DNA of 55,762 nucleotides from Psychromonas sp. (GTDB taxonomy: Bacteria > Pseudomonadota > Gammaproteobacteria > Enterobacterales > Psychromonadaceae): NCBI GenBank assembly GCA_013619145.1, contig JABXKR010000287.1:1-55762 (forward strand). The letters run 5' to 3'. The notes beneath the pieces are model-generated. The model saw only the letters and a program-made list of their open reading frames with translations, was not told the origin of the DNA and ran no database searches. This document shows positions 1,122 through 28,465 of this stretch, piece after piece (position 1 is the first letter of the stretch; the number at the start of each line of letters is the position of its first letter). The position numbers were made by a program, and so were the translations under genes.

Positions 1122-2204
1122 TTATTCAGCTAGATGAACAACTTCTGTTGCAGCCAGCATCAATGCACCAGCTCCATAATCCATGTTATGTTCAAACTTA
1201 ACATCTCGAGGATTAAAAGCAGGAAGTTGTACCCACCCCATCATGCCATTTTCATGGATTGCAGTTTGCAGTGCAGCCCAAGATGATTCAACAACGGGAA
1301 GATATGTCTCTTTATCTAAAATACCGTTATTAATTCCCCATGCAAGACCGTAACAGAACAGTGCTGTCGCACTACTTTCCGGTGCAGGGAAGTTATCAGG
1401 ATCTAACAAGCTGGTACGCCAGAAACCATCTGCTTGTTGATACTTGATAACTTCTGCTGCCAATGCTGTAAACAGGTCGATATAAGGCTGGCGCTGCTCG
1501 AAATCCTCTGGCAGACGCGCCAGAATGCGCGGGCATGCTGCCAACATCCAGCCGATACCGCGCGACCAGAACACCTTCTCACCGTTAGCTTCACGTAGCT
1601 CTGCCCCACCGTCACCGAACTCATCACGGTACTTCTGGCCTAGCTCAGTTGGCATGTAACGGTAGTCACGGTAAAACAGGTTCGTTTCAGGATCATAAAG
1701 GTGATCAATCGAATCCCAGAACGCCGTATGCATGTAATCAACATACTTGCGCTCGCCGGTCACTTTCGACAAAGCCGCAAAGGCAGGTGGTGCCATAAAC
1801 AGTGAGTCCACCCACCACCAGTCGCGATGGCCTGGTTTCGGCTCATCAAGCATAATATCGAACGCTTTAATGGTCGGTTCCAACGCTTCAGGGATGTTTA
1901 TTGTTGGGTAGACGTCCAGATAAGCTTGGGCACAAACATGGTCATCCGCAAAACGCGGAAATGCACCGGTACGAAAACCTGTGTGTAATGTGTAGTTCAT
2001 GACACCATTCAGATATTCCTGATCGTCAGTTGCCATCCACGCTGCAGAAGCACAAGACCAGAATACGCCACGCTCCCAGTCCGTATCCTTGATAAAGCGA
2101 GTCGCGCCACTGCTGCGAATCACAGAACGAGTCTGATTTTCAGACTGATAGCGGTAAACGCGTTTCATTGCCGTTAAAACATCTTGTTTCGTTGCGAATG
2201 CCAT
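1122..2204 (-). CDS. GH105-type unsaturated uronyl hydrolase
   Basis: 360 aa. It resembles the YteR/GH105 family, (alpha/alpha)6-barrel enzymes that hydrolyse the unsaturated uronic acid left at the non-reducing end by polysaccharide lyases. Visible family signatures are FADDHVCAQAYLDVY (residues 85-99), WWVDSLFMAPP with the likely catalytic Asp133, an LYDPETNLFYRDYRY segment and FWSRGIGWMLA. There is no signal peptide, so it acts in the cytoplasm on an imported disaccharide. The product would be 4-deoxy-5-ketouronate, the substrate of the KduI and KduD genes just upstream. It is the last gene of the operon, 12 bp after kduD. GAG disaccharides are usually handled by GH88, so GH105 here is notable. 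By eye the first two thirds of the gene look more GC-rich than its 3' end and its neighbours. Confidence 0.82.
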   Translation of the reverse strand: MAFATKQDVLTAMKRVYRYQSENQTRSVIRSSGATRFIKDTDWERGVFWSCASAAWMATDDQEYLNGVMNYTLHTGFRTGAFPRFADDHVCAQAYLDVYPTINIPEALEPTIKAFDIMLDEPKPGHRDWWWVDSLFMAPPAFAALSKVTGERKYVDYMHTAFWDSIDHLYDPETNLFYRDYRYMPTELGQKYRDEFGDGGAELREANGEKVFWSRGIGWMLAACPRILARLPEDFEQRQPYIDLFTALAAEVIKYQQADGFWRTSLLDPDNFPAPESSATALFCYGLAWGINNGILDKETYLPVVESSWAALQTAIHENGMMGWVQLPAFNPRDVKFEHNMDYGAGALMLAATEVVHLAE

Positions 2205-2216
2205 TTAGCTTGCTCC

Positions 2217-2972
2217 TTAACGTGCTAACCAACCGCCATCAACAGCGATTGTGTAACCGTTTACATAGTCACTTGCAGGTGAAGAAAGGAATACGATAGG
2301 ACCGGCTAAATCTTCTGGTGTTCCCCAACGGTTAGCAGGAATACGCTCAAGGATTGCAGCATTACGCGCTTCATCAGCACGCAGTGCTTCTGTATTATCT
2401 GTTGCCATGTAACCCGGTGCAATTGCATTAACGTTAACGTTGTACTTCGCTAATTCATTTGCCAGTGCGCGTGTTAGGCCCATAACCGCAGATTTACTAG
2501 CTGTGTAAGAAGGTACACGAATACCACCTTGGAAAGATAACATAGATGCGATATTGATAATTTTGCCGCCGTTACCTTGCTTAACAAATTGTTTAGCAAC
2601 CGCTTGAGATAGGAAAAATACCGTTTTTTGGTTAATGTTGATTACGTCATCCCAGTTTTTCTCAGAAAAGTCTAAGAAATCTTCACGACGAATGATACCT
2701 GCATTATTAACTAACACATCTACACGCCCCATCACTTCAACCGTTTCAGTAACGATATCTTGTAACTGATCTTGAACCATCAGGTTAGCTGTAATGTAGT
2801 GAAATTTACGGCCTAGCGCTTCGATTTTAGCTTGAGTTTCCGGAGCTGGCATATGACCGACACCCACGATATCGGCACCTGCTTCAGCTAGACCAACTGC
2901 AGAGCCTTGACCAAGACCCGTGTTACAACCTGTTACGATGGCTACTTTGCCAGTAAGATCAAAATTGTTCAT
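2217..2972 (-). CDS. kduD: 2-deoxy-D-gluconate 3-dehydrogenase / 2-dehydro-3-deoxy-D-gluconate 5-dehydrogenase
   Basis: 251 aa, a classical short-chain dehydrogenase of the usual KduD length. The NAD-binding glycine motif TGCNTGLGQGSA lies near residue 15. The NNAG motif is present, the catalytic Ser lies in INIASMLS, and Tyr/Lys are in YTASK. KduD reduces 3-deoxy-D-glycero-2,5-hexodiulosonate to 2-keto-3-deoxygluconate in the cytoplasm. Its position between kduI and an unsaturated-uronyl hydrolase supports this role over other SDR functions. The next steps, KDG kinase and KDPG aldolase, are not in the window. The C-terminus VNGYTIAVDGGWLAR is typical of the subfamily. Confidence 0.9.
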   Translation of the reverse strand: MNNFDLTGKVAIVTGCNTGLGQGSAVGLAEAGADIVGVGHMPAPETQAKIEALGRKFHYITANLMVQDQLQDIVTETVEVMGRVDVLVNNAGIIRREDFLDFSEKNWDDVININQKTVFFLSQAVAKQFVKQGNGGKIINIASMLSFQGGIRVPSYTASKSAVMGLTRALANELAKYNVNVNAIAPGYMATDNTEALRADEARNAAILERIPANRWGTPEDLAGPIVFLSSPASDYVNGYTIAVDGGWLAR

Positions 2973-3000
2973 TTTAATACCCTATAATTAGTTGATTGCA

Positions 3001-3020
3001 GTGTCACAAATTTGCGACAC
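3001..3020. promoter_or_regulatory. 20-bp quasi-palindrome between kduI and kduD
   Basis: The sequence gtgtcacaaatttgcgacac is symmetrical apart from one pair. It lies in the 72-bp gap between two genes of the same operon. It could be an operator for an internal promoter or an mRNA hairpin. It does not fit a standard KdgR or CRP site well, so the regulator is unknown. Confidence 0.4.
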
Positions 3021-3044
3021 CGTAAGTTAAGGAGGTTAATAAGA

Positions 3045-3875
3045 TTATTTCAGGTCGCTCATCGCAACATGATCCATATCGTGGAAAGTCTGGTTTTCAC
3101 CAACCATTCCCCAAATAAAGGTATAAGATGATGTACCTACACCTGAGTGAATAGACCAGCTAGGGCTAATCACAGCTTGCTCATTACGTACAACAATATG
3201 ACGAGTTTCTTGAGGCTCACCCATGTAATGGAAAGCAATGTTGTTATCTTTCATATCAAAGTATAAGTACACTTCCATACGACGTTCATGAGTGTGACAC
3301 GGCATAGTGTTCCATAAGCTACCAGGAGCAAGCTCTGTCATCCCCATCAATAACTGACAAGTTGGCAATACAGCAGGGTGAAGATATTTGTAAATTGTAC
3401 GAACGTTACAGTTTTCCTGGTTACCCAAAGTTTCCGGTGAAGCTTCATCACGTGTAATTTTACGTGTTGGGTAAGCATGATGTGCTGGTGCACAGTTTAA
3501 GTAGAAACGAGCAGGGTTACTTGCATCAACACTTTCAAAACGAATCTCTTTTGCGCCCATACCTACATATAGTGCTTCTCGAGCAGCAATTTCAAATGTT
3601 TCACCATCAATAATAACGAGACCGGCTTCACCAATATTAATTGCACCTAATTCACGGCGTTGCAGAAAGAAGTCAACACCGATCTCTTTACCGCCTTCAA
3701 AAGCAACGGCTTCAGTTGTCGGCACGACACCACCGACAATAATGCGGTCAATGTGGCTATAAGTCAGATTGATCTGACCTTCTTGAAACATATCTTCAAT
3801 TAGAAACTGTTCACGTAGACCTGCAGTACCTAACTGTTTTGCATGTTCACTATGAATTGGTTGACGAATTTCCAT
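3045..3875 (-). CDS. kduI: 5-dehydro-4-deoxy-D-glucuronate isomerase
   Basis: 276 aa, the normal length for KduI (E. coli about 278). This cupin isomerase converts 4-deoxy-L-threo-5-hexosulose uronate into 3-deoxy-D-glycero-2,5-hexodiulosonate, which KduD then reduces. The zinc-binding cluster is visible as [16 protein letters not shown] (two His and the Glu) and a further His in [13 protein letters not shown]. The N-terminus [15 protein letters not shown] and the [11 protein letters not shown] segment are family signatures. It lies between agaA and kduD in one transcription direction. In this setting the substrate is expected to come from GAG rather than pectin, because the operon also carries the GalNAc branch. 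Confidence 0.95.
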
Positions 3876-3946
3876 TTTAAACCTCTTAATTTTTTAATTT
3901 ATTTACACTATTTATTACAAAATACGTTTAAAGTATTGCTCAAAAG

Positions 3947-5098
3947 TTATACTTTTTTATATGCAAATTTACCTTTAATAACAGTACCTTGCACTTGCAT
4001 TTCATTATTCATAATCGTAAAGCTTGCATCCATACCTTCAGCAATACTGCCAAGGCGATGCTCAACTCCAAGATATTTTGCAGGGACAGAAGATGCCATT
4101 TGCACCGCTTCCCACTCAGGTACCTGAGTCTTAAAGATCATGTTACGTAATGCCTGATCTAAGCTGCATGTACTCCCCGCTAAAGAACCGCAAGCAGTAC
4201 GAGCTTCTCCATTAGTCACCGAGATAACTTGCGCACCAAGCGTGTAATCGCCATCGGCTAATCCACCTGCGCGCATGCAGTCTGTAATCAATGCGATGCC
4301 TTGATAGCCTTTCATTCGATAAGCAAGCTGCATCATTACCGGGTTGACATGAATTCCGTCTGCAATAAGTTCCGCTAACATGTCGTGATACAACACCGCA
4401 CCGCAACAACCCGGCTCACGATGATGCAATCCACTCATGCCGTTAAACAGATGGACTCCGCAATCAGCCCCGAGATGAAACGCTTCTGTTACCTGCTCAA
4501 AAGTCGCATCAGTATGGGCAACAGAGGCTTTTATGCCATGCTCGGTTAGCCAACTGATAGCTTGCATCGCACCATCACCTTCCGGCGCTATCGCAGCACG
4601 AATTAAAGAGCCAGCAGCAGCTTCTTTTAGCTGCTCTAATTCAGCAATCGTAGGCGATTTCAAATAAGCAGTAGGATGCGAACCTCTCTGAGGTTCTGTG
4701 AAATATGGGCCTTCTAAAAAGCTACCAAATAATTCTGCACCTTGAGCTTGTGACTGTTCTGTATAAGTACGCACTTCAGCCAATGCATTTAGAATATCGT
4801 TCCACGGAGCGGTTACTGTGGTACCAACCCATCCGACAACGCCGGTTTCTGGTAAAGCATCAGCAATATTTTGCAATGCTTGCTGTGTTGCATCCATAAC
4901 ATCAGCGCCATGGCGCCCATGAATATGAATATCAATAAAACCAGGTAACAATGACTGACCTTCAAGACGAATGATTTCGCAGTCTGTCGGAATGGTTTTA
5001 GTCACAGAAGCTATCTGTCCATTTTCAACGACAACGGCAATATCCGTTTCAATTCCAGTTGCCGTAAATACTCTATCTGCAATTAAGGCATAGCGCAT
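3947..5098 (-). CDS. agaA: N-acetylgalactosamine-6-phosphate deacetylase (NagA family)
   Basis: 383 aa from the chosen start. An amidohydrolase of the NagA/AgaA family that removes acetate from GalNAc-6-P (or GlcNAc-6-P) in the cytoplasm. Metal and active-site motifs are visible: PGFIDIHIHGRHGADVMD near residue 55, FLEGPYFTEPQRG, the His in VAHTDATF, GVHLFNGMSGLHHREPG, and the catalytic Asp in LITDCMRAGG. I start at the ATG at 5098, two bases after the agaF stop; an upstream in-frame ATG at 5119 would overlap agaF by about 20 bp. The sequence alone does not separate NagA from AgaA. AgaS, KbaZ and an Aga-type PTS in the same operon favour the galactosamine substrate. Confidence 0.85.
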   Translation of the reverse strand: MRYALIADRVFTATGIETDIAVVVENGQIASVTKTIPTDCEIIRLEGQSLLPGFIDIHIHGRHGADVMDATQQALQNIADALPETGVVGWVGTTVTAPWNDILNALAEVRTYTEQSQAQGAELFGSFLEGPYFTEPQRGSHPTAYLKSPTIAELEQLKEAAAGSLIRAAIAPEGDGAMQAISWLTEHGIKASVAHTDATFEQVTEAFHLGADCGVHLFNGMSGLHHREPGCCGAVLYHDMLAELIADGIHVNPVMMQLAYRMKGYQGIALITDCMRAGGLADGDYTLGAQVISVTNGEARTACGSLAGSTCSLDQALRNMIFKTQVPEWEAVQMASSVPAKYLGVEHRLGSIAEGMDASFTIMNNEMQVQGTVIKGKFAYKKV

Positions 5099-5100
5099 AA

Positions 5101-5544
5101 TTAGAGTCCGTCCACACATTCAACTTCAGGCTCGCAAGCCATAGCAGCTTCAAGCTCTTTACGCATATCTTGTATGCAGGAAGTGCCAATATCTAAAAGA
5201 ATATCAACAAGTTCCTTAAGGCTGACACCGTCTCGCTCAAAGGCGCCATTAGCGATCATTGGTAAGTTTGTACCAGCAATCACCTCAACATTCTCAGTAT
5301 CCATAAGAATGGCTGACGCGCGGTTAGAAGGCGATCCCCCCGGAACATCCGTTAAGAACAGAACGCCTTCTCCTGAATCTACATCTTTAGCTGCTTGACG
5401 CAATTGCGCCTCTAATTCATCCGTTGACATTGATTCAACAAAATCAACATACTTCATCTGCTCTTGCTCACCAGTAATCGCTTGTACTGCCGATTGCATG
5501 CCGGTCGCAAAGTTAAGATGTCCTGAAACAACAATACCTATCAT
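5101..5544 (-). CDS. agaF: PTS mannose/GalNAc-family EIIA component
   Basis: 147 aa, the size of a free-standing EIIA of the mannose family. This cytoplasmic protein takes phosphate from HPr on a His and passes it to EIIB. The phosphorylated His is most likely His9 in IVVSGHLNFATGM. The segment FLTDVPGGSPSNRA is a strong family signature. It follows agaE by 59 bp, a gap that holds a GC-rich hairpin, and is followed by agaA after two bases. The tail EAAMACEPEVECVDGL is slightly longer than in many EIIA proteins. It is one of four separate PTS subunits here (IIB, IIC, IID, IIA). Confidence 0.92.
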   Translation of the reverse strand: MIGIVVSGHLNFATGMQSAVQAITGEQEQMKYVDFVESMSTDELEAQLRQAAKDVDSGEGVLFLTDVPGGSPSNRASAILMDTENVEVIAGTNLPMIANGAFERDGVSLKELVDILLDIGTSCIQDMRKELEAAMACEPEVECVDGL

Positions 5545-5563
5545 TGGTTTAATCCTCGAATAT

Positions 5564-5581
5564 GAGGGGGAGGGCCCCCTC
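5564..5581 (-). other. GC-rich hairpin between agaE and agaF
   Basis: Seven perfect G-C-rich pairs (gaggggg and ccccctc) close a 4-nt loop. No T-tract follows on the minus strand, so it is unlikely to be a full terminator. It could adjust message stability or the ratio of membrane subunits to EIIA. Confidence 0.5.
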
Positions 5582-5603
5582 GAAAAATATTAAAGCTGCT
5601 AAC

Positions 5604-6497
5604 TTAGAGAATACCTAAGAAGTGTCCTACGACACCTGCCGCGAGTGTTGCAAAAATCAATACCGGAGGCTTAGCCCAGAATCCTGTTCCTTTCACCATT
5701 TTCAGCATAAAGAACACCAATGCCAGAGGCAGTAAATTTGGCATTATTTTGTCAAATAACGTACTTTGCAGTTCAACTGCCTTGCCGCCCAGCTCGATTG
5801 TCGCCGTTGTCTGTATCTGAATAAAGGTGGCTGACAGCGCGCCGATAACAAAGATACCCATAATATTGGCGGCTTTTGCCACCTTCTCAGTCGCTTCCCC
5901 CAAGTTGACAATAGCAGCGGTGCCCGCTTTATAACCCATAAACATCAAGCCAAAATACACTGTCATATGTGCCAGTTGGTATAATATGAAGAATACAAAT
6001 GGTCCAGCAATTGATCCGTCCAGTGCAATAGAAGCACCTAATGCAAGTGTTAATGGCATTAACGTCATATGGTCAATGGCATCACCAATCCCACCAGTTG
6101 GTCCCATCCCGGCAACTTTCATTACATTAACGGTCGACGGCTGTTCTTTATTTTCTTCCATTGCTACGGCAGTACCTAGCAAGAAAGTGAACAGTTTCGG
6201 ACTCGCATTAAAAAATTGCAGATGGTTCTTTAATGCTTTAGCTAAATCAGCCTTATTATTGCCATGAATCTTCTTCAGTGCAGGAATAATAGAATAAGCA
6301 AATCCCCCTGCCTGCATACGTTCGAAGTTAAAATTACCTTCCATAAACAGACCACGAATTGCACAAATCCAAAGATCTTTTTTGGAGATCACCTGACGTA
6401 CTGTGGTGTCTTCATATGAATCAATATCATCAACCAAACTTTCGTAAGTCTTAGTGTTTGTATCGGCTAAAGCGCCTACTTCAATATCAGATGCCAT
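5604..6497 (-). CDS. agaE: PTS mannose/GalNAc-family EIID component
   Basis: 297 aa from the chosen start. Membrane subunit of a mannose-family PTS that forms the sugar channel together with EIIC. The family signature is seen in SKKDLWICAIRGLFMEGNFN and in the following MQAGGFAYSIIPAL. PTGGIGDAIDHMTLMPLTLAL precedes several hydrophobic segments, and the C-terminus is a membrane anchor. I start at the ATG at 6497, preceded by AGAGGA at good spacing; this overlaps the agaW stop by 11 bp, which suggests translational coupling. A longer frame from 6545 lies inside agaW and has no better ribosome-binding site. Confidence 0.92.
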   Translation of the reverse strand: MASDIEVGALADTNTKTYESLVDDIDSYEDTTVRQVISKKDLWICAIRGLFMEGNFNFERMQAGGFAYSIIPALKKIHGNNKADLAKALKNHLQFFNASPKLFTFLLGTAVAMEENKEQPSTVNVMKVAGMGPTGGIGDAIDHMTLMPLTLALGASIALDGSIAGPFVFFILYQLAHMTVYFGLMFMGYKAGTAAIVNLGEATEKVAKAANIMGIFVIGALSATFIQIQTTATIELGGKAVELQSTLFDKIMPNLLPLALVFFMLKMVKGTGFWAKPPVLIFATLAAGVVGHFLGIL

Positions 6498-7257
6498 CTT
6501 CAAAGTCCTCTGCTTGTGTGTTATTCGAATTTCCATTGCTTCCACTAAAGAAGTAGTACAATGCAGCGATTGACGCGCCTATAACGGCAACAGCCATAAT
6601 TGGAAGGTGAAGATACGTTGTCATAACAAAACCGATAAAGAAAACGCCCGCCACTTCTTTCGACCACATAATTTTAAGCAGCATTGCAAAACCGATGGCT
6701 GGAACCATTTTCGCACCAATACCAAGACCTTCGAGTAAGACTGTTGGTGCATTTTCATCAATCCAAGTTGCGCCCTTCTCACCAAAATAAACCGTCGCAA
6801 AAGCAACTACCGCATATAACAAGGAACGCAAAGTAATGGTGATATAAAGGAGTCGATCCAGACCGCCAGGATTTGCAGTTTCAGCATATTCGTCAGCTTT
6901 GCCCATTGTGAAAGAGGTCATTGCAAAGAAGCCGATTACTAACATCTGCATAATAACGGCAATCGGCATACCAACACCCATTGCCACTTCAGCTGACTGG
7001 CCGGTCATAACAGCAAAAGCAACAGCTGCAATCGTACCCATAGTAACATCCGGTGGCTGAGCACCAGCGTTAGGCACAAGGCCTAACCAAGCTAGTTCCA
7101 ATGTAGCACCAGCCATTAAACCGATTTGCATATCACCCATAATAAACCCTACAACAGGGCCAGTAATAAGTGGACGGTGAATATTCAACGCGACATCGTA
7201 TTTATCGATACCACAGAAGAATGCCCAGACAGCGACGAGTAGCGCTTCATAAACCAT
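6487..7257 (-). CDS. agaW: PTS mannose/GalNAc-family EIIC component
   Basis: 256 aa, the standard size of a mannose-family EIIC. The integral membrane protein MVYEALLVAVWAFFCGIDKY continues with LITGPVVGFIMGDMQIGLMA and GATLELAWLGLVPNAGAQPP, all typical of the family. At least six hydrophobic segments are visible. The hydrophilic tail is rich in Asn, Gly and Ser. The gene lies between the damaged agaV and agaE. Its bases 6882-6960 recur exactly inside agaV at 7611-7689. In agaW this stretch is continuous family sequence (PIAVIMQMLVIGFFAMTSFT), so agaW is the source and agaV received the copy. Confidence 0.92.
   Translation of the reverse strand: MVYEALLVAVWAFFCGIDKYDVALNIHRPLITGPVVGFIMGDMQIGLMAGATLELAWLGLVPNAGAQPPDVTMGTIAAVAFAVMTGQSAEVAMGVGMPIAVIMQMLVIGFFAMTSFTMGKADEYAETANPGGLDRLLYITITLRSLLYAVVAFATVYFGEKGATWIDENAPTVLLEGLGIGAKMVPAIGFAMLLKIMWSKEVAGVFFIGFVMTTYLHLPIMAVAVIGASIAALYYFFSGSNGNSNNTQAEDFEDGI
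6882..6960. repeat. 79-bp direct repeat, source copy inside agaW
   Basis: Exact match over 79 bases to 7611-7689, with different bases immediately outside at both ends. Here it encodes native EIIC transmembrane sequence. Confidence 0.95.
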
Positions 7258-7302
7258 GATTTATTCCTTATATTAAATCTGTGTTTAGTTAATTGGCGGT
7301 AT

Positions 7303-7720
7303 TTACACCGCCGCCTGTTCAAGTACGTGTAGTTCTTTTTGATCCGGTGTGTTTTGAATTGTGCATGTCACACCACGTTCAACCAGTCGCTCAAAAGCAC
7401 TAATATCACTTGCATTTACAGACACTGTTTTAGTTATCTGTTTCTTACCTTCATGAAAATGCATATTGCCGACATTACAGTGAGTAATCGGCACGTTGCC
7501 CTCAACTAAACGCGCAACGTCATTCGGGTTATTACATAAAATAAAGATTTTTTGCTTCGGCGAAGCTTTGCTAATAACCTCAATCGTCTTATCGATAGAG
7601 AAAAAACGAACAGCATATTCGTCAGCTTTGCCCATTGTGAAAGAGGTCATTGCAAAGAAGCCGATTACTAACATCTGCATAATAACGGCTGCGGGTCCAA
7701 ACAATATTAGGTGCAGTCAT
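7303..7720 (-). pseudogene. agaV: PTS EIIB component, N-terminal region replaced by a copy of agaW
   Basis: From the ATG at 7720, which follows agggat, the protein begins MTAPNIVWTR, the expected start of a mannose-family EIIB. The family then continues with a DDRLIHGQ-type segment carrying the phosphorylated His. Here it is missing. In its place is a 79-bp exact copy of agaW sequence, and the original frame stops soon after. EIIB sequence resumes at VRFFSIDKTIEVISKASPKQ and continues to a normal C-terminus ending LEQAAV. Roughly 45 residues of EIIB appear to be lost. An open frame from a TTG at 7704 joins agaW sequence to the EIIB remainder, but it would start with a transmembrane fragment and lack the active His. 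As written, the PTS could not transfer phosphate. Either an assembly error or a real lesion. Confidence 0.85.
7611..7689. repeat. 79-bp direct repeat, inserted copy inside agaV
   Basis: Exact copy of 6882-6960 from the neighbouring agaW gene. It takes the place of EIIB sequence rather than adding to it, because EIIB residues expected between MTAPNIVWTR and VRFFSIDKT are absent. Confidence 0.95.
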
Positions 7721-7744
7721 AATAGTTATCCCTAGTGTTAATAA

Positions 7745-8908
7745 TTAAAGTTCATGTTGATGAATAGTTACGCCTTGTACAACTCGGTTTACCTCTCCAG
7801 TTGGACAAGGATTATCAGGCGTATTACCCAGCGCTAGTGCACGATGAAATGAATACATTTGCGCAAATAGCATATATGGAAATAAAAGCCCTACATCTGA
7901 TGCTGTATCCATTTCAGGTACATAGATAAAATCACCAGAAATCACTTGCTCATCCTTTTGTGCCGTTATTGCAATTACCTTACTGGCGATCTTATCGCGA
8001 CGTAATTCACTTAAAAGATCAAGATCATATTTTCGGGTGTATGGATTATTAGAAATAAACACCACGATTAATGTTTTCGAATTTACAATCGATTTTGGAC
8101 CATGGCGGAAACCTAACGGTGAATCAAAACATGCCACAACTTTACCCGCAGTTAATTCAAGTAATTTCAATGCCGATTCTTGGGCTAAGCCCTGCAAACC
8201 ACCACTACCTAAATAAATAACTCGTTCAAAATCAATATCAGCTATTTTACTTACATTTGTATTAATTTCTTTGATCAACCCCTCAGAACACTTACAAAGT
8301 CTTTCGATTTCTTTCGAATGCTCATTGGTAGTTGACAAAATCGAAAAGCAAGCCAGCATCATCGAAGAAAAACTTGAAGTCATCGCAAAAGATTTATCAT
8401 TGGTTTCGGCTGGCATCAGTAATGACAACGATTTATTATCCGCCGCACTATTTTTATAAAGCTGACCTTCATTATTACAAGTTAATACCAGGTGATAGCA
8501 AGTTGTTAAACACTGGTTGGCCAGATCAACAGCAGCAACACTTTCAGGGCTATTACCTGAACGTGCAAATGACACAACTAGCGTTGGTAAGTCTTCCGCA
8601 AAATATTGGTAAGGATTTGACACGATATCAGTACTAGCAAGTGCTTCAACACGACGTCCGGTATCTTTTGACAGTTCAGCAGCTAATGCTTGACCAGCAA
8701 AAGCTGAAGTGCCCGCTCCAGTCAATACAATGCGCAGATCTTTATGAGAAAGTACTTTTGCCATAAATAAGTCAATGGCTTTTTTGTTTGCCTGGACAAT
8801 GTCCTGTGTTTTGCGCCAGCACATTGGTTGCTGCTCAATTTCTTTTGCAGTCCAAAAACCACTGAAACCTTCTAACTCTTTTTCTGCGTAACCCAAATAT
8901 TGATTCAT
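7745..8908 (-). CDS. agaS: D-galactosamine-6-phosphate deaminase/isomerase (SIS domain)
   Basis: 387 aa, close to E. coli AgaS (384). Cytoplasmic enzyme that converts galactosamine-6-phosphate to tagatose-6-phosphate and ammonia. Two SIS (sugar isomerase) domains are visible. The first has RIVLTGAGTSAFAGQALA near residue 60 and VVSFARSGNSPESVAAV near residue 112. The second has VIYLGSGGLQGLAQESALKL and CFDSPLGFRHGPKSIVN. It sits between kbaZ and agaV with a 10-bp gap to kbaZ, and a good AAGGA ribosome-binding site precedes the ATG. It follows AgaA in the pathway. GlmS-like and FrlB-like SIS proteins are less likely given these neighbours. Confidence 0.92.
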   Translation of the reverse strand: MNQYLGYAEKELEGFSGFWTAKEIEQQPMCWRKTQDIVQANKKAIDLFMAKVLSHKDLRIVLTGAGTSAFAGQALAAELSKDTGRRVEALASTDIVSNPYQYFAEDLPTLVVSFARSGNSPESVAAVDLANQCLTTCYHLVLTCNNEGQLYKNSAADNKSLSLLMPAETNDKSFAMTSSFSSMMLACFSILSTTNEHSKEIERLCKCSEGLIKEINTNVSKIADIDFERVIYLGSGGLQGLAQESALKLLELTAGKVVACFDSPLGFRHGPKSIVNSKTLIVVFISNNPYTRKYDLDLLSELRRDKIASKVIAITAQKDEQVISGDFIYVPEMDTASDVGLLFPYMLFAQMYSFHRALALGNTPDNPCPTGEVNRVVQGVTIHQHEL

Positions 8909-8918
8909 AATATATTCC

Positions 8919-10205
8919 TTAACCTTTACTTTGTTTGCAAGCTACCGCGTAGCTGCGTAATACTTGCTGAATTTTATCTAACACTAAACTCTTCGGATCT
9001 GAAACTAACAGCCCTTCACGTACAGCTTTAAATTGCTCTGGTAAATATTGGCTTAATAATGGAAGTGGTATTCCAGTACGCGATAAGTTGCCGAATAACT
9101 TTTCTTGTGCAGTCTGGATACCCTGGTCTGGCCAGTAATAACGGATGCGGTCACTGAAACTGTAAGTACGAGCAAAACGTTGCTGTGCTTCAGTACCGTG
9201 ATAATATTTTTCCCAATACCCAGGTGCATCACACATCTGCTGTTCAACTACATCTCTCAAGTTAGAACAATGTGCTTTAACAACAAACTGCTCTTCGATA
9301 TCACATAGGCTAAAAAGTGCTTCGCGCATTGCGAAAGTAAGTTGAGGGCCTACTTTTAAGATTGCGAAATGTCCTTCAACCAATGCTTTATAAGCTTTAT
9401 CTGTTTGATAATCGGTAGAATGAGCTTCAAAAGCAAGGTGGTCATAATCATTAACCACAGCACTCAATTGCTGAGCTTTTTCCGGGCAAAAATCAATAAC
9501 GCCTGTGTGATCAAATTCAACACCAGGTTGAACAACTAAACCGATAACACGAGACCAGCAATCAGAAACGCCAGCTTTAGCAAATGCTTCTTTATGACAA
9601 GAGATTGTTTTGTGAGCAGCTTCAGGAGAAGTAACTTCAAGCTCTTCAAGCTCTTCAGCAGCACCGCCTGGAACGGGAACTTCTGTACCGACAACATAAA
9701 CAAGATCGCTACTGCCAAAGGTTTTAAGTGCAGTGCTTTCGGCAATTTTTGCTAATCGAGCTGCACGTTCTGCAACCACTTCATCAGATAAAGGGGTTGG
9801 ATCGTCAAGACAAGACATGCTGCAATCGAGGTGAATTTTTTTAAAACCAGCGGCTACGTAAGCTGCAATAAGATCATCAGCTTTGTCCATCGCTTCTTGA
9901 GAAGATAGGTCCTGCCAGCGGTTAGGTCCGAGATGGTCCCCGCCTAGAATAAGGTTTTCGGTTGGGAATTTAACTGACTCAGCCAGCTCTAATACGAAAT
10001 TTCTAAAATCAACAGGTGTCATACCTGTATAGCCACCAAATTGATCAACTTGGTTGGAGGTCGCTTCAATCAATAATAAAGAATCATCATTTAACGCCTG
10101 TCTAAGAGCGGCTTCAATAACAAGCGGATGAGCTGAACAAACAGAATAAATACCGTTATTTCCGCCTGTTTTATTACGTTTAATGAGGTTTTGAAGGGTG
10201 TTCAT
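8919..10205 (-). CDS. kbaZ: Tagatose-1,6-bisphosphate aldolase non-catalytic subunit (KbaZ/GatZ family)
   Basis: 428 aa, the normal length of KbaZ/GatZ. It stabilises and activates the catalytic class II aldolase KbaY, which splits tagatose-1,6-bisphosphate into DHAP and glyceraldehyde-3-phosphate. Visible family segments are [62 protein letters not shown] and [14 protein letters not shown]. No kbaY or tagatose-6-phosphate kinase gene is found in the window, so the partner must be encoded elsewhere if the pathway is complete. The gene follows agaR by 57 bp. A hairpin in that gap includes the GGAG ribosome-binding site. Confidence 0.93.
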
Positions 10206-10262: not shown

Positions 10263-11039
10263 CTAGCGGTCTTTTTCTACTACAATAACTTCAACTTTCA
10301 TATCGCGGAGACTTTGTAAGTATTCTTCCGGAATATCTGCATCGGTTACTAAGATATCAATATCTCCGAACTCACGAATCATATGACAGCTTCGTTTACC
10401 AAACTTGGTAGAATCGGCAACTGCAATAACTTGTTCAGAAATCTTACACATTAAGCGGTTAAGACTTGCTTCCTGCTCATTATGTGTAGTGATACCAGCT
10501 CTTAAATCAAAACCATCAACACCTAAAAAAACTTTGTCGAAACGATAATTTTTTAGACTGTTTTCGGCTTGCGAGCCAGAAAAAGAGAGTGCATTCTTAC
10601 GAAGCACACCACCAGACATCAAAACCTCTATTCCCGAGGCCGATGCCAACTCCATTGCTACATCCAGACCATTAGTCATTACCACTACATTATTTAACGA
10701 TTTTAAGTTAGATGCGATTTCTCGCGTAGTAGTACCTGAATCCAGAATAACTGTGTCACCATTCTTAACCAGTTTAGCTGCAGCCCTACCGATAAAAGAT
10801 TTAACGCCAGCATTTTGACGACGTTTTTCATTTACGGTTAGCTCAGCTATTACACCTGAATTTGGAATTACGGCACCATGAGAACGAATCACATAGCCAT
10901 TTCTTTCCAAAAAACTCAGATCACTGCGAATAGTGACACTTGAGACATTAAATTGAGCAGCAAGGTCCTCTACCCGGGCTTTACCATCTTGGTTAACCAC
11001 ATTGACGATTTCCGTGCGCCTTTCTATAGCACTTTTCAC
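10263..11039 (-). CDS. agaR: DeoR-family transcriptional regulator, probable AgaR repressor
   Basis: 258 aa, typical DeoR family. N-terminal helix-turn-helix at about residues 6-55: RRTEIVNVVNQDGKARVEDL, then AAQFNVSSVTIRSDLSFLER. The C-terminal DeoRC sugar-phosphate-binding domain contains GDTVILDSGTTTREIASNL, VMTNGLDVAMELA, GVLRKNALSF, KVFLGVDGFDL and DSTKFGKRS. E. coli AgaR represses the aga genes and is released by an aminosugar phosphate. Here the gene is the first of the operon. Phased TTTC repeats stand upstream at 11074-11165, matching the style of DeoR-family operators. The gene symbol rests on context as well as sequence; DeoR paralogues are hard to separate by eye. Confidence 0.85.
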   Translation of the reverse strand: MKSAIERRTEIVNVVNQDGKARVEDLAAQFNVSSVTIRSDLSFLERNGYVIRSHGAVIPNSGVIAELTVNEKRRQNAGVKSFIGRAAAKLVKNGDTVILDSGTTTREIASNLKSLNNVVVMTNGLDVAMELASASGIEVLMSGGVLRKNALSFSGSQAENSLKNYRFDKVFLGVDGFDLRAGITTHNEQEASLNRLMCKISEQVIAVADSTKFGKRSCHMIREFGDIDILVTDADIPEEYLQSLRDMKVEVIVVEKDR

Positions 11040-11165: not shown

Positions 11166-11501
11166 TTACCACTCTTGCTCTTGCGTAACATTACGCATTA
11201 ACCACTATAATATACTTAGAACGCAATATTACCAAATTTAAAACTTACATTTTTGATACAGATTTCACTTTATAGTTATTTCCGAATATATTATAACCTA
11301 CATTGTTCTTCACTTGCCTTCAAAAGTTTACTTTTACTTTCTTTTTTGTGATCAAAAAGCTAGTCAACAACGTTTCGATCGCTTACGATATGAAACATAT
11401 TAGCAAGAACAACTACCGTTACAATTAAAAATGAAGAAGATATAAATTTTTTTCTTCATTTATTGTTAAATTTTCACATGTTTCATTTCCTGGAGTTGAT
11501 T
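11091..11501. other. Divergent promoter region between agaR and the first sulfatase
   Basis: About 410 bases, strongly AT-rich, with no open frame. It must hold promoters in both directions. Besides the phased repeats at the agaR side, a half-matching unit tttcgatcgcttac lies at 11373-11386, followed by gatatgaaac, which makes a short inverted repeat gtttc/gaaac (11372-11396). A tttttgtgatcaaaaa sequence near 11343 looks like half of a CRP site. Confidence 0.5.
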
Positions 11502-13064
11502 ATGTCAATTACCCGTCGCGATATGCTTAAAGGAATGGCTGCTACAAGTGCCGTAGTAGCAACGACTTTAACCGCTGGATGCAGCACATCTACAGTCACA
11601 AGTAACACAGCTAAAAATACTGAAAAACCGGCTAAAAAACCTAATTTGTTAATTATATTTCCTGATGAATTGCGCACTCAGGCATTAGGGTTTATGAAGC
11701 AGGATCCATCACAAACACCTAATCTAAATAAATTTGCAAAACAAAGTGTTGTACTTAAACAAGCTGTTTCTAATTATCCGCTGTGTACCCCTTTCCGTGG
11801 CATGTTAATGACAGGGCAATATCCAACCCGTAATGGTATACAAGGTAATAGTCATACCCCAATGCCAGGTAAATTTGGTGGCAGTGATTTTGGTATTGAA
11901 CTAAATAAAAATGCACTGACTTGGTCTGATATTATGAAAGATCAAGGATATAGCATGGGTTACATCGGCAAGTGGCATCTCGATGCACCGGAAGCGCCAT
12001 TTGTACCAAGCTACAACAACCCGATGGAAGGACGTTACTGGAATGACTGGACCGCTCCGGATCGCCGTCATGGTTTTGATTTCTGGTATTCCTATGGTAC
12101 CTATGACAAACATCTCAACCCGATCTACTGGACCAATGATACGCCACGCGACAAACCGCTAAAAATCAATCAATGGAGTCCTGAGCACGAAGCGGATATT
12201 GCAATTAAATATCTGCAAAACCAAGATGGTAAATATCGTGATAACGACAAGCCGTTTAGTTTAGTCGTATCAATGAATCCCCCTCATTCACCTTACGACC
12301 AGGTTCCGCAAAAATACCTGGATAAGTTTGCAGGTGAAACTTCTGAAAGTCTCAATACGCGACCTAACATACAGTGGGATAAAGAATATACAGAAGGTTA
12401 CGGGCCTAAATACTTTAAAGAATATATGGCCATGGTACACGGTGTTGATGAGCAGTTTGGTCGTATTATTGATGAACTGGATCGTCTGCAACTGGCTGAA
12501 GATACGCTGGTTGTGTTCTTCTCGGATCACGGTAGCTGTCTCGGCGCAAATGGTAAACCGACAAAAAACACCCATTATGAAGAAGCGATGCGCATACCTA
12601 TGATCTTCCGTTGGCCTGGAACACTAACAGCACAAGAAAATGACATCTTATTTTCTGCCCCGGACATCTACCCGACAATGTTAGGTCTGATGGGGATGAG
12701 TGAGCTGATTCCGGATACTGTTGAAGGTACCAACTTCGCAAATACAGTAAAAGGGATCAAAGGTGATAAACAGCCAACTTCGCAATTCTATACATTTACA
12801 CCATACGGTGCACAATCTTATGGCCGTCGCGGTGTAAGAACAGATCGTTATACGCTGGTTGTGGATCGTAAAATTGCGAAACCATTGAGTTACGTATTAC
12901 ATGACAATCAAACCGACCCTTATCAGATGAGTAACATTGCCGAAGCTAATGAACCACTAATCCACCAGCTGATTGAAGAAGAGTTAATGCCTTGGCTTGA
13001 ACATACTGGCGATCCTTGGCGTCCGACTGAAGTACCTCAAAGCGTAATGAATGCTTATACCTAG
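11502..13064 (+). CDS. Tat-exported S1-family sulfatase, probable GAG sulfatase
   Basis: 520 aa from the ATG at 11502, which follows TGGAG; an upstream in-frame ATG at 11463 lacks a site and is not used. The N-terminus MSITRRDMLKGMAAT carries a twin-arginine motif and is followed by the lipobox-like LTAGC, so it may be a Tat-exported lipoprotein. Type I sulfatase features: PNLLIIFPDEL (metal ligands near residue 55), YPLCTPFRGMLMTGQ with Cys95 to become formylglycine, GYIGKWHLD, and FFSDHGSCLG. The substrate cannot be read from sequence. Its place beside a heparinase and GalNAc genes suggests a GAG sulfate. The formylglycine-generating enzyme is not in the window. Confidence 0.88.
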   Translation: MSITRRDMLKGMAATSAVVATTLTAGCSTSTVTSNTAKNTEKPAKKPNLLIIFPDELRTQALGFMKQDPSQTPNLNKFAKQSVVLKQAVSNYPLCTPFRGMLMTGQYPTRNGIQGNSHTPMPGKFGGSDFGIELNKNALTWSDIMKDQGYSMGYIGKWHLDAPEAPFVPSYNNPMEGRYWNDWTAPDRRHGFDFWYSYGTYDKHLNPIYWTNDTPRDKPLKINQWSPEHEADIAIKYLQNQDGKYRDNDKPFSLVVSMNPPHSPYDQVPQKYLDKFAGETSESLNTRPNIQWDKEYTEGYGPKYFKEYMAMVHGVDEQFGRIIDELDRLQLAEDTLVVFFSDHGSCLGANGKPTKNTHYEEAMRIPMIFRWPGTLTAQENDILFSAPDIYPTMLGLMGMSELIPDTVEGTNFANTVKGIKGDKQPTSQFYTFTPYGAQSYGRRGVRTDRYTLVVDRKIAKPLSYVLHDNQTDPYQMSNIAEANEPLIHQLIEEELMPWLEHTGDPWRPTEVPQSVMNAYT

Positions 13065-14120: not shown

Positions 14121-15668
14121 ATGTCCATTTCCAGACGTAATTTCATGAAAGGTTTTGCAGGCGCAGCTGCGACCACTGCTGCTTCTACATTACTTACCAG
14201 TAATGCAGCAAATGCGACACCTTCCATCCCGCCTAAGGGTAAAGTAAAAAATATTCTTATTATCACAGCCGATCAACTGTCTCGTCATGCGGTTGGTGGT
14301 TACGGTAATAAAGAAGTACAAACACCTTCTATTGACAGCATCATTAATAAAGGTACTAAATTCAATGCGGCTTATACAGCCTATCCATTATGCGGGCCGT
14401 CACGAGCGTCATTCTGGACAGGTCGTCTGCCTCACCAAAATGGTGTGCATGGCAATAACAGTCCAAATATCCCATCAACTATGCCGACGCTAGGCACGCT
14501 TTTTAGCGAAGCCGGTTATGAGGCTGTACACTTTGGTAAAAAGCATGATTTTGGTTCACTTAAAGGCTTTAATTGTGCAGAGCAGATTGAAATAGAGATC
14601 GATGCGCCTGATGCCTTCCCGGTTAACTATGACTCACGGGAAGATATTTATGCTGAGCAAAAAAGCGTTGAGTTTTTAAATAAAAAACATGATAAGCCAT
14701 TTATTATGGCCGTTGATTTTAATAATCCACATAATATCTGTGGCTGGGTAGGTGCGTTTGAAAACCAACGCGGTGATATCCCGGGCATTGGCCCACTGCC
14801 GCCGTTGCGGGCAAATTTTGAAAACTTGGATCCGATCACCAATCGTCCAAAAGCAATTCAATACTTATGCTGCACGCACCACCGCATGCACCAAGCAGCC
14901 CATTGGAAGGATCTAAACTATCAGCAGTACCTTGCCGCTTATTACCACTATACTAAGGTAGCAGATGACAGCATTACCAAGGTACTGAATGCCTTAACTA
15001 AATCAGATGCTGCTGATAATACCCTAGTGGTCTTTTTCAGTGATCATGGCGATGCCATGGGCAGTCACAGACAGGTCACCAAGTATAACTTCTTCTACGA
15101 AGAAGCCACCAATGTGCCGTTTGTACTGGCAGGTCCGGGGATCCCAAGTGGCGGGAGCAACAGTGATCTGGTTTCCCTGTGCGATCTGGTGCCAACCCTG
15201 TGTGATTATGCCGACATTGCGCCGCCTGCTGATTTGTATGGCCGCAGTGTACTACCGTTATTGCGCGGAGAAACGCCGGCAGACTGGCGTGATGCCATTG
15301 TCAGTCAATGGTATACCAGCCGTGAAAAGACCGTACAACCTTCACGTATGTACCGCACCAAAACCCATAAATACACGGTATATCAGGAAGGCGGCGAAGA
15401 GTTATTTGACTTAATAGCCGATCCCGGTGAAAGGTTAAATCTGGCCAACGATCCTGCGCATAGCGCGTTATTGGCAGAATACCGAGAGAAATTCACAACT
15501 TATACTCATGAATATATCGACCCGTTCACCACTCAGGCGGTGCGCGTAGATCCAGAATGGCGCGATCATAAACCTGGTTACCAAAATCATGAAGGTGCCT
15601 GTTCCATCGATCAGTACCTTGCAGAGAAAAAAGCCAAATTGGCTGCTGAAGGTGCAACCGGCCATTAA
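14121..15668 (+). CDS. Tat-exported S1-family sulfatase, second gene
   Basis: 515 aa. The N-terminus MSISRRNFMKGFAGAAATTA is a twin-arginine signal ending near ANA (residues 29-31), so a folded enzyme is exported to the periplasm. Type I sulfatase hallmarks: ILIITADQLSRHAVGGYG with metal ligands Asp51/Gln52, YPLCGPSRASFWTG with Cys91 as the formylglycine precursor, and FFSDHGDAMGSHRQ. It differs clearly from the first sulfatase, so the pair probably removes sulfate from different positions or sugars. Exact subfamily is not decided here. A terminator follows at 15695, and PL13 begins 108 bp after the stop. Removing a 6-O-sulfate before uptake would be needed if the PTS phosphorylates C6. Confidence 0.9.
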   Translation: MSISRRNFMKGFAGAAATTAASTLLTSNAANATPSIPPKGKVKNILIITADQLSRHAVGGYGNKEVQTPSIDSIINKGTKFNAAYTAYPLCGPSRASFWTGRLPHQNGVHGNNSPNIPSTMPTLGTLFSEAGYEAVHFGKKHDFGSLKGFNCAEQIEIEIDAPDAFPVNYDSREDIYAEQKSVEFLNKKHDKPFIMAVDFNNPHNICGWVGAFENQRGDIPGIGPLPPLRANFENLDPITNRPKAIQYLCCTHHRMHQAAHWKDLNYQQYLAAYYHYTKVADDSITKVLNALTKSDAADNTLVVFFSDHGDAMGSHRQVTKYNFFYEEATNVPFVLAGPGIPSGGSNSDLVSLCDLVPTLCDYADIAPPADLYGRSVLPLLRGETPADWRDAIVSQWYTSREKTVQPSRMYRTKTHKYTVYQEGGEELFDLIADPGERLNLANDPAHSALLAEYREKFTTYTHEYIDPFTTQAVRVDPEWRDHKPGYQNHEGACSIDQYLAEKKAKLAAEGATGH

Positions 15669-25200: not shown

Positions 25201-25281
25201 TGCTAGCACATTATTAGTAAGTAACAGGGAAACTGCTACTGCGAGTGCTTTCTTTTTATTCATGCTTACATTATGAATCAT
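22213..25281 (-). CDS. Chondroitin sulfate ABC-lyase-type polysaccharide lyase (PL8)
   Basis: 1022 aa, the same length class as Proteus vulgaris chondroitinase ABC. The ATG at 25281 follows AAGGA at 7-nt spacing; a signal peptide ends near VLAE. Domains in order: N-terminal beta-sandwich (about 70-225) with WTVFSGWIYNEKASDGELKF, an alpha/alpha toroid (about 240-610), then C-terminal beta-sheets. Residues corresponding to the known active site are present: His499 in FRHKGNYPGYSF, Tyr506 in the same motif, an Arg at 558/559 in TNGRRPF, and Glu653 in SSEIYHNANRYGRYQSHG. Also LVATHHWGYSGRSWY and DGWDWNRMPGATTIHLPWE-type signatures (here NGWDWNRMPG). Such enzymes degrade chondroitin and dermatan sulfates, and often hyaluronan, to unsaturated disaccharides. 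Periplasmic or secreted. Confidence 0.93.
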   Translation of the reverse strand: MIHNVSMNKKKALAVAVSLLLTNNVLAETKAVTAAAPVANAIEVTAQEPVVEVAAQEAVVEVKQRDPMQAQIISFEEELLPEFISASETSQIKLTDKRFINGKQSLEWDWQPGDSLTLDKKLYYYTPKEAFQAYGRKSWTVFSGWIYNEKASDGELKFEFGSGSEFTMKLNFTGWRSPGVAFHRDMQGMTSAEMDGLTLTVENASEAGKIYIDRLMVSIDDYRYQWSDNHVKTAETVPEIDYELPEQLPAATAEEVASLAKVKQGLLDYYLADFKASKKMVKSIRKKYQAYNLKKEDGVISGAHLVTKKQLTIYQKERLSEQDKHLVHEYVNLRKYVELMEKIAQVWNNSDDAEIRQEMLDKYLLMSEHLLDQGFTHGSSLVATHHWGYSGRSWYSSMLLMEKPLHEAGLLKPIHASLLWYAREFKERGFDMRVGPKSSDMDYYNTLALAHIAMLLTEEGEDRQVALMHKFAKFISGNMEQTPVGYGDGFRPDGTAFRHKGNYPGYSFAAFKSAANIAYLLSDSSFELSEPARQYLKKVMLAARVYSNPNPGVGTNGRRPFFNVSLKKVTEGYRWLALAGVDGSGVDKELAEAYLRLLEEQPKKAKSDLSQQFTAESHPQGAYTFNYAAMGIYRHNDKMVTMKGFNRYVWSSEIYHNANRYGRYQSHGSVQIQKWGAEKEFGYDENGWDWNRMPGATTIHLPWEKLEAPRKHTTMLLNDSRFSGATDLKGKYGAFGFTLENPDKWPDFIDPSFTAKKSVFSFEDRLVLVGSNITNSNSKFPTETTLFQYGLTDKTQPLWLNGQLINEFPFEAQLEKGDWLIDGMGNGYYVVKGGEVNVRRQEQESRDNQKKQPTFGNFASAWIDHGNAPSGGEYEYIITLDATPEKMQQLAEQMQEEESRPYEIIRQDGAAHIVRDKTTGVTGYTAFTFVRTSDQWVRSISTSSVVMVKGSADKLEMSVANPDLNMEKHTLSQVVPVSVTLKGAWKLASPMDNVAVKRKGARTVVTVNCIDGIPVQIDMDPA

Positions 25282-28300: not shown

Positions 28301-28465
28301 CATACCCTGCTCAAAAAGATAGATTTTCCCGCCAGGCTGCTGGTATGAATGAGTGTCATATTTTGCTGCGGAACTGCCTTTATCACTACAACCTACGGTC
28401 AATAATGCACAGAGAAGCAGCATATTAATAACAACGACTGTGTCGATAACGTTAGATGTTTTCAT
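25375..28465 (-). pseudogene. Second PL8 chondroitin-lyase-type gene, interrupted in its C-terminal domain
   Basis: The upstream part (28465 to 26111, 784 codons) starts MKTSNVIDTVVVINMLLLCA with lipobox LTVGC, so this paralogue is a lipoprotein. It keeps the PL8 layout: LGTAHHMGYSVRALSRAH, an active-site pair in IFHHAQHYPAYAK, Arg in SLAGRHP, and Glu in NESYANANRYGRYINYG. The normal frame is lost after GSGIKTQDG, where a 43-bp inverted copy of downstream sequence replaces an estimated 20-40 codons and brings a stop. The C-terminal part resumes at LNAENLTVTEKRKVN and LLDPDNNAYFVPGDAV and is intact to 25375, about 240 codons. With its catalytic core intact the truncated protein might still fold, but PL8 enzymes need the C-terminal sheets. 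It may equally be an assembly fault in an intact gene. Confidence 0.85.
26067..26157. repeat. 43-bp perfect inverted repeat with 5-nt loop
   Basis: 26067-26109 and 26115-26157 are exact reverse complements; the loop is attaa. Pairing stops at a66/c158, so the boundary is sharp. The left arm is native PL8 coding sequence (minus strand, frame ENLTVTEKRKVNM). The right arm is its inverted copy and reads as nonsense ending in a stop. Confidence 0.97.

Follow-up and report, generated by a model that had tools for sequence, protein, structure and literature searches.

Gene linkage and phylogeny suggest uptake of intact unsaturated chondroitin disaccharide by an Aga-type phosphotransferase system in a family of gammaproteobacterial loci

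An operon on contig JABXKR010000287.1 of Psychromonas sp. (GenBank assembly GCA_013619145.1) raises the question of whether a phosphotransferase system (PTS) of the Aga type, which resembles the N-acetylgalactosamine (GalNAc) transporter of E. coli, imports an unsaturated glycosaminoglycan (GAG) disaccharide intact into a Gram-negative cell. This contig (C33), hereafter termed the window, was analyzed whole (55,762 bases). Its source genome has a size of 3.95 Mb in 336 contigs and is 85.6% complete. According to a preliminary description of this DNA, a hydrolase for unsaturated uronides, KduD, KduI, AgaA, AgaS, KbaZ and an Aga-type PTS are encoded in one operon, in which the PTS is the only transporter seen. 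All these genes are confirmed on the minus strand at 1122-10205 (Table 1), and no other transporter is found among the listed open reading frames (ORFs) of at least 90 amino acids between 1 and 16 kb. Within the PTS, the genes for EIIA, EIIC and EIID are open, but that for EIIB (agaV) is broken as assembled. The operon probably represents the half of a chondroitin/dermatan sulfate pathway that takes place in the cytoplasm, with PTS import of the intact disaccharide, when this is stated for the family of related loci. This reading is drawn from the gene content, the linkage of PTS and hydrolase, the absence of a visible signal peptide, the clade structure of the PTS, and the similarity of the lyases and sulfatases to GAG-active enzymes.

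The pathway would begin with PL8 lyases, which would cut chondroitin/dermatan sulfate to unsaturated disaccharides, and with sulfatases, which would strip these disaccharides. Both groups of enzymes are predicted to be exported from leaders read by eye. The AgaVWEF-type PTS would then import deltaHexA-GalNAc whole and would phosphorylate it at the free C6-OH of GalNAc, and the cytoplasmic GH105-like enzyme would split the phosphorylated disaccharide into unsaturated uronate and GalNAc-6-phosphate. The uronate would be converted by KduI and KduD and then by a KdgK-like kinase and a KDPG-type aldolase, which are encoded on another contig. GalNAc-6-phosphate would be converted by AgaA, AgaS and KbaZ, for which no separate kinase would be needed. 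GAG disaccharides sulfated at C6 are reported to be unsuitable as PTS substrates (PMC6837340). By the logic of the pathway, PTS import fits the presence of sulfatase genes beside the operon and the need of AgaA for a 6-phosphate substrate, because no kinase is then required.

The hydrolase of the window starts with MAFATKQDVLTAMKRVYRYQ, in which no hydrophobic leader is visible. Thus, the earlier statement that it lacks a signal peptide holds by inspection of this start. When a simple hydropathy measure was applied with the first ATG as the start, a hydrophobic N-terminus was absent from 67 of the 69 PTS-linked hydrolases (68 distinct sequences), but from only two of eight other homologues (L143 and an ORF of Bacteroides nordii), the remaining six having a hydrophobic leader. 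The two PTS-linked exceptions are from Salmonella loci and may be mis-started; in these loci, it is an upstream in-frame ATG that would add the hydrophobic N-terminus. The window operon thus encodes, together with the PTS, an unsaturated uronyl hydrolase that is predicted to be cytoplasmic.

The class of this hydrolase was examined by sequence and fold. A profile of 22 sequences matches ten related solved chains, with 4ce7 as the best (E 8.6e-83), and two unrelated chains weakly; no chain named unsaturated glucuronyl hydrolase (UGL) appears in this search up to E 10. The best fold match of the predicted structure (mean pLDDT 84.5) is also 4ce7 (TM 0.83), and the UGL structures, including that of Streptococcus agalactiae, rank 15-26. 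These results indicate that the hydrolase is nearest to GH105 by sequence and predicted fold, as judged by the names of the structure entries, and identity with UGL (GH88) is rejected, though two of the nearest chains carry family 88 in their names (5noa, the second, by its depositors, and 4q88, the third, by its title) and PF07470 is also named for family 88. The database name of 4ce7, a GH105 ulvan hydrolase, is unsaturated 3S-rhamnoglycuronyl hydrolase, in which it differs from the function proposed here. Asp88 and Asp133, which we take to match catalytic positions, are invariant in the 22 aligned sequences. The role of the enzyme in the pathway would be analogous to that of streptococcal UGL, while its sequence places it with GH105.

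To what extent the PTS and the hydrolase are linked was examined in three collections. A scan of GTDB species genomes with two peptide patterns taken from close relatives, and therefore biased to them, gave 63 loci, of which 62 are gammaproteobacterial. The other is from B. nordii, with a hydrolase of 35% identity and no match to the PTS queries. The hydrolase and EIIC genes are on the same strand in all 62 gammaproteobacterial loci, with 539-3799 bp between the end of the EIID gene and the hydrolase gene. EIID is found in 62 of these loci, EIIC in 61 (E<1e-10; L030 is cut), EIIA in 61 and EIIB in 61. Among the catabolic genes, AgaS and KbaZ are each found in 59 loci, AgaA in 56, KduI in 44 and KduD in 43, and among the genes for polymer attack, a sulfatase of the 4-O-sulfatase type (at least 50% identity) is found in 43 and a PL8 lyase of the window's type in 21; the flanks comprise 10 kb or less, so that the outer genes are undercounted. 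The second collection, an order sample of 394 genomes drawn without these patterns, contains 33 genomes with any hydrolase match (E 1e-10 or better). A PTS of the window's type adjoins the hydrolase in all 12 genomes in which the hydrolase shows at least 56% identity. The PTS context was read for these 12 genomes, at least five of which (G003, G015, G016, G023 and G075) are also represented among the 62 loci, and the other 21 genomes have weak hydrolase matches (47% identity or less). Seven of the weak-hydrolase genomes had their loci read for N-termini, and none of them is among the AgaW matches. In the plasmid collection, for which the best 40 of 276 PTS records and the best 25 of 32 hydrolase records were listed, the best 15 PTS records (at least 55% identity) are the same 15 records that have a hydrolase of at least 52% identity. 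Two of these 15 records are from Proteus and have the size of a chromosome. In L154, a plasmid of Vibrio navarrensis, no hydrolase is encoded within 8 kb of the PTS, but one is encoded on the same plasmid at 39380-40444; here PTS and hydrolase co-occur without adjacency.

A comparison of EIIC and EIID with the E. coli Aga PTS and its streptococcal counterparts had been proposed in the preliminary description. In an EIIC+EIID tree of 43 rows, none of them streptococcal, the 24 hydrolase-linked rows and L154 form one clade (support 100/100), and E. coli AgaW/AgaE, ManYZ and all other rows fall outside it. Thus, the E. coli Aga PTS is apart from the hydrolase-linked clade. Several outer rows have long branches, and support is weak (83/69) for the branch next to the clade, which includes L095. 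The 68 linked rows and L154 also group together when 103 rows (94 distinct) are analyzed with FastTree. Two plasmid PTS of Enterococcus, with no annotated hydrolase adjoining, were used as distant rows only. EIIC and EIID of Proteus mirabilis (L060) are inside the hydrolase-linked clade, as are those of Proteus vulgaris (L054). At 31 positions, the 68 linked rows (66 distinct) are near-fixed and different from 27 GalNAc-type rows (20 distinct), which lie around E. coli AgaW and are so labelled by similarity and context. In EIID, several residues common to E. coli ManZ and AgaE are replaced in the linked clade, which has E69 for Q, K117 for F, D158-H159 for FW, Q190 for N and Y197 for R. The ten-residue pattern ENKDHQYVRN is present in 66 of the 68 linked rows and in L154, the other two rows having one gap and one single change respectively, and is present in none of the 34 remaining rows. 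This exclusivity is partly built in, because the positions were picked on the same alignment, which does not apply to the agreement between ManZ and AgaE. Contact of these residues with the sugar is a guess, and the available passages of PMC8021565 name no substrate contacts of ManYZ.

The strongest argument for import of the disaccharide comes from loci in which the galactosamine genes are missing. In three loci (L116-L118), EIIB, EIIC, EIID, EIIA and the hydrolase are kept, and AgaS, KbaZ and AgaA give no match within 20 kb. ORFs were read in L116, where two PL8 lyases, KduD, a PfkB kinase and a KDPG aldolase are encoded; L117 and L118 are known through matches to gene queries. A Citrobacter plasmid typed as conjugative (L155, 7610-18708) encodes DeoR, IIB, IIC, IID, IIA, the hydrolase, a DUF2264 protein and PL8, and E. 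coli and Yersinia enterocolitica plasmids, known from matches alone, give PTS and hydrolase matches equal to those of the Citrobacter plasmid. Because the PTS and the hydrolase are constant while the amino-sugar genes vary, the substrate that they share would be the disaccharide. From the resemblance of the gene content of L116 to the hyaluronan locus of Vibrio alginolyticus (PMC8222515), we tentatively suggest that the form without galactosamine genes acts on hyaluronan. Its lyases do not show this, as one PL8 lyase of L116 is about equally near to three kinds of lyase (xanthan lyase, 351 bits; hyaluronate lyase, 309.5 bits; chondroitin AC lyase, 304.7 bits). As separate observations, the loci of Salmonella enterica arizonae and diarizonae (L059 and L062) keep the PTS and the hydrolase and have no AgaS, KbaZ or AgaA within their flanks, and in nine Pasteurellaceae loci (L047, L057, L063, L069-L073 and L077) genes typed by one representative each as a DeoC/LacD-type aldolase and a LacAB/RpiB-like isomerase are located near the operon.

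Several points weigh against import of the intact disaccharide. AgaW and AgaF of the window exceed the cut-offs of curated GalNAc-PTS models, while AgaE and the truncated AgaV (124.2 bits; cut-off 180) fall below them. The EIIB gene is disrupted in the window, and no second copy is found in the genome. The 62 loci were retrieved with peptide patterns of close relatives. The ten plasmid matches from Citrobacter, E. coli and Yersinia score equally and seem to be copies of a single element. Of the three Vibrio plasmids among the 15 records, two have the PTS more than 30 kb from the hydrolase by the record coordinates. No transport or enzyme assay for the hydrolase-linked PTS clade was found in the literature, and another disaccharide transporter is possible in the incomplete genome. 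A relative of the window's 4-O-sulfatase, PB_3262 of Photobacterium, is predicted to lack a signal peptide (PMC8819143), which weakens the proposed export. Finally, a ptsH mutant of P. mirabilis grows much less on GalNAc and shows a growth defect on chondroitin sulfate C, which the authors attribute to GalNAc release (PMC13289894). The Aga PTS is given in the transporter table of that report as AgaFDWV (agaV, agaW, agaD, agaF); a triple mutant including agaV was tested in animals, and the passages seen describe no aga mutant on chondroitin. The ptsH result fits uptake of GalNAc, uptake of the disaccharide, or both.

Uptake of both is the content of the alternative that survives best, in which the PTS has a relaxed specificity and accepts free GalNAc or GlcNAc in addition to the intact disaccharide. 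It is compatible with disaccharide import and may well apply, its chance being a little below even. The dependence of GalNAc growth on PtsH in P. mirabilis and the fit of the window's PTS to two GalNAc-PTS models argue for it. Six Psychromonas genomes have the hydrolase, and four of them also encode a second AgaW-type EIIC (39-43% identity), which would be partly redundant if the hydrolase-linked PTS served GalNAc well. In the three contexts read, no hydrolase is encoded at this second PTS. These rows (L121, L124 and L125) group with E. coli AgaW, and L124 and L125 have no AgaS or KbaZ nearby.

The second alternative concerns the state of the pathway in this strain. The start codon of agaV is at 7720, and its first ten residues are identical to those of a relative. 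Beyond ten codons, the gene is an exact 79-nt copy (7611-7689) of the agaW stretch 6882-6960 in direct repeat, and the true frame meets a stop after 32 codons. The open ORF 7303-7704 aligns to EIIB models only from about position 50 onward. The lost part would presumably hold the active histidine, which is located in IDERLLHGQ of a relative. Neither another mannose-type EIIB nor a separate piece with the missing part of agaV was found in this incomplete genome. Thus, the window does not contain intact mannose-family EIIA, EIIB, EIIC and EIID in one locus, EIIB being the part that is lacking, and the import claim is made for the family and not for this strain, because the PTS of this assembly has no intact EIIB. 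The break may be a real lesion or an assembly fault, each being possible. Decay of the pathway in this strain, with the agaV lesion and the split second PL8 gene as real events, would be compatible with disaccharide import in the family, and is a serious candidate that we nevertheless rather doubt. The internal 79-bp copy, the early stop and the spread of the second PL8 gene over two ORFs are as expected from decay. The remaining operon genes are open, all 61 relatives with an EIIB match have it starting at one of the first eight residues (the locus of the 62nd, L030, starts inside the operon), and mis-assembly could also yield an exact 79-bp repeat in an assembly of 336 contigs. The counterpart of the second PL8 gene on the Vibrio navarrensis plasmid is annotated as one gene.

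A PTS restricted to GalNAc, as in E. coli, with a different transporter bringing the disaccharide to the cytoplasmic hydrolase, is improbable. The GalNAc-PTS cut-offs passed by AgaW and AgaF and the PtsH dependence of P. mirabilis are consistent with such a division, and membrane proteins of unknown role recur in some flanks (Imp-YgjV in 10 loci, DUF1275 in 8 and DUF808 in 4). Nevertheless, 27 clusters of unassigned ORFs recur in at least three of the 62 loci, and when one representative of each was typed, the sole known transporter family was a sodium:solute symporter. The 8 loci that have it also contain genes of the NanE, DHDPS and ROK types, as would be expected of a cluster for sialic acid. 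GalNAc freed inside the cell would require a kinase, none of which is seen in the window operon, and import of GalNAc only leaves the form without galactosamine genes and the separate PTS clade unexplained. A periplasmic hydrolase with only monosaccharides crossing the inner membrane, as described for Bacteroides (PMC9067506), is very improbable and is rejected on the N-termini given above.

Intact import by the PTS followed by cytoplasmic splitting remains the best reading for the family, given the linkage in 62 of 62 loci, the separate clade and the form without galactosamine genes, with the broken EIIB of the window against it. Further genes of the source genome were examined. A 7.6-kb contig (C54) encodes a sulfatase-maturase-type radical-SAM protein, a sulfatase, a DUF2264 protein (L161, 3084-4406), a KdgK-like PfkB kinase and a KDPG/KHG aldolase. 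Since genes for the maturase, sulfatase and DUF2264 protein come after the hydrolase gene in several relatives, C54 probably continues the window locus. Two HPr matches are counted in favor of PTS import. The KbaY partner of KbaZ was not identified, one class II aldolase match (open frame of 364 amino acids) being located elsewhere in the incomplete genome; a class II aldolase is also one of the 27 neighbor clusters (9 loci). The C54 sulfatase was considered as a GalNAc-6-O-exosulfatase of the PB_3285 type, but this is not claimed, because it shares only a short motif known from primers (PMC8819143) and is closest to carrageenan sulfatases among solved structures.

With the DUF2264 protein of the source genome as query, tblastn finds DUF2264 in 26 of the 62 loci. 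The DUF2264 protein of a relative matches the glucuronate dehydratases 9o4u (E 8.6e-12) and 9nwf (6e-11), but 8oi4, named beta-galactosidase, more closely (1.5e-14). Most of the listed DUF2264 proteins start without an obvious leader; that of L067 has a hydrophobic N-terminal extension, which may be an artefact of start choice. In Bacteroides caccae, a glucuronate dehydratase feeds a GH88 enzyme (PMC12269599). A cytoplasmic dehydratase beside the disaccharide hydrolase, if this is the role of DUF2264, fits intact import.

Table 1. Genes of the operon and of its surroundings in the window
Feature	Position	Strand	Basis of assignment
GH105-like unsaturated uronyl hydrolase (predicted), 360 aa	1122..2204	-	PF07470 250.8 bits; nearest solved chain 4ce7 (named GH105)
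KduD, 2-dehydro-3-deoxy-D-gluconate 5-dehydrogenase	2217..2972	-	NF006528 436.7 bits, cut-off 430
KduI, 5-dehydro-4-deoxy-D-glucuronate isomerase	3045..3875	-	NF002091 457 bits, cut-off 250
AgaA/NagA-type amino-sugar 6-phosphate deacetylase	3947..5119	-	TIGR00221 (nagA) 320.3 bits, cut-off 225.65; AgaA name by context
AgaF, PTS EIIA	5101..5544	-	NF040761 167.7 bits, cut-off 130
PTS EIID, signature residues E69 N71 K117 D158 H159 Q190 Y197 V277	5604..6545	-	best model AgaE NF040760 251.7 bits, under cut-off 500
AgaW, PTS EIIC	6487..7257	-	NF040757 332.6 bits, cut-off 300
agaV, PTS EIIB, disrupted as assembled	7303..7720	-	79-nt exact agaW copy; early stop
AgaS-family sugar isomerase/deaminase	7745..8908	-	TIGR02815 598.7 bits, cut-off 529.2
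KbaZ, tagatose-bisphosphate aldolase subunit	8919..10205	-	NF012002 776.5 bits, cut-off 707
AgaR-like DeoR-family regulator	10263..11039	-	DeoRC 180.3 bits
Chondroitin/dermatan 4-O-sulfatase type, twin-arginine-like leader	11463..13064	+	6j66 CS/DS 4-O-endosulfatase 1017.7 bits; TAT_signal 20.6 bits, under cut-off 22.7
GAG 2-O-sulfatase type, twin-arginine-like leader	14121..15668	+	5g2t 2-O glycosaminoglycan sulfatase 436.6 bits; TAT_signal 22.4 bits, under cut-off 22.7
PL8 chondroitin ABC lyase type	22213..25281	-	1hn0 chondroitin ABC lyase I 864 bits
Second PL8 lyase, two ORFs (25375-26094 and 26111-28465)	25375..28465	-	larger ORF: Lyase_N, Lyase_catalyt, part of Lyase_8
OprD-like outer-membrane porin, candidate for outer-membrane entry	30119..31672	+	PF03573 47.1 bits

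Genes for a PF14099 polysaccharide lyase (15777-16862) and a DUF6250 protein (13184-13924) adjoin the sulfatase genes of the window; the DUF6250 gene is found in one of the 62 loci.

PTS import of an intact unsaturated hyaluronan disaccharide was shown for S. agalactiae in 2019 (PMC6837340). That system resembles the window in that one locus combines mannose-family EIIA-EIID with uronate catabolism and a cytoplasmic hydrolase for unsaturated uronides. It differs in that it employs UGL (GH88, PMC12838403) and DhuI/DhuD and acts on hyaluronan, whereas the window encodes a GH105-like enzyme, KduI/KduD and the GalNAc-6-phosphate pathway. The window EIIA gives 70.3 bits against E. coli ManX EIIA and 50.6 bits against the S. 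agalactiae gbs1890 chain 4tkz, which we take from its label to be the EIIA of the streptococcal GAG PTS. For Vibrio alginolyticus LWW-9, PTS import of a hyaluronan disaccharide was proposed in 2021 for a locus with two PL8 lyases, a hydrolase called GH88, four PTS genes and four enzymes for monosaccharides; the available passages name no AgaS, KbaZ or AgaA (PMC8222515), and L116 resembles this locus by gene content alone. In section 14 of a 2022 review, two ABC lyases, a sulfatase, an unsaturated hydrolase, a PTS and catabolic genes are noted together in the chondroitinase locus of P. vulgaris, with no transport model given there (PMC9067506). E. coli AgaVWEF has the same subunit plan and is likewise accompanied by KbaZ, an AgaA-type deacetylase and AgaS, but no hydrolase, KduI or KduD is encoded in the region shown, its EIIC and EIID are in the other clade, and its EIID has FW instead of DH. 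A description of the hydrolase-linked PTS as a separate clade, or a tested PTS import of chondroitin disaccharide in a Gram-negative bacterium, was not found among the literature matches listed, most subscription journals being outside the search, and the best-listed matches contain nothing relevant on AgaVWEF together with chondroitin or hyaluronan. The import idea itself is thus partly in print; what is new here is the hydrolase of GH105-like type, the dehydratase-like companion, and the finding that the PTS forms a clade of its own with a signature. The separation of the PTS clade from the E. coli GalNAc PTS fits a Gram-negative counterpart to the streptococcal route, but such a counterpart was already proposed in 2021, with the P. 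vulgaris gene set noted in 2022, and the claimed difference from a GalNAc role may not be complete in view of the PtsH dependence in P. mirabilis.

A more extended model may be considered, though as a whole it is unlikely to be correct in every part. The gammaproteobacterial GAG-disaccharide PTS would have been assembled independently of the streptococcal one; the change of the EIID residues FW, F, Q and R to DH, K, E and Y would allow it to accept a uronyl disaccharide; the GH105-like enzyme would be specialized for the 6-phosphorylated disaccharide; a DUF2264 glucuronate dehydratase, often present, would act in the cytoplasm and allow saturated disaccharides to join this pathway; and the module would move on plasmids, some of them conjugative.

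With this family, a specific path by which fragments of chondroitin and hyaluronan would cross the inner membrane can be named for Gram-negative bacteria such as Proteus, Edwardsiella, Photobacterium and Vibrio, for which knowledge of the machinery lags behind that for Bacteroides according to section 14 of the 2022 review (PMC9067506). For the hydrolase-linked clade, GalNAc PTS and GH88 may be misleading labels. Where S. agalactiae UGL and Bacillus subtilis YteR serve as the markers of a survey (PMC12838403), the route of the gammaproteobacteria may be overlooked or assigned to pectin breakdown, and the ten-residue signature would serve as a quick genomic test for it.

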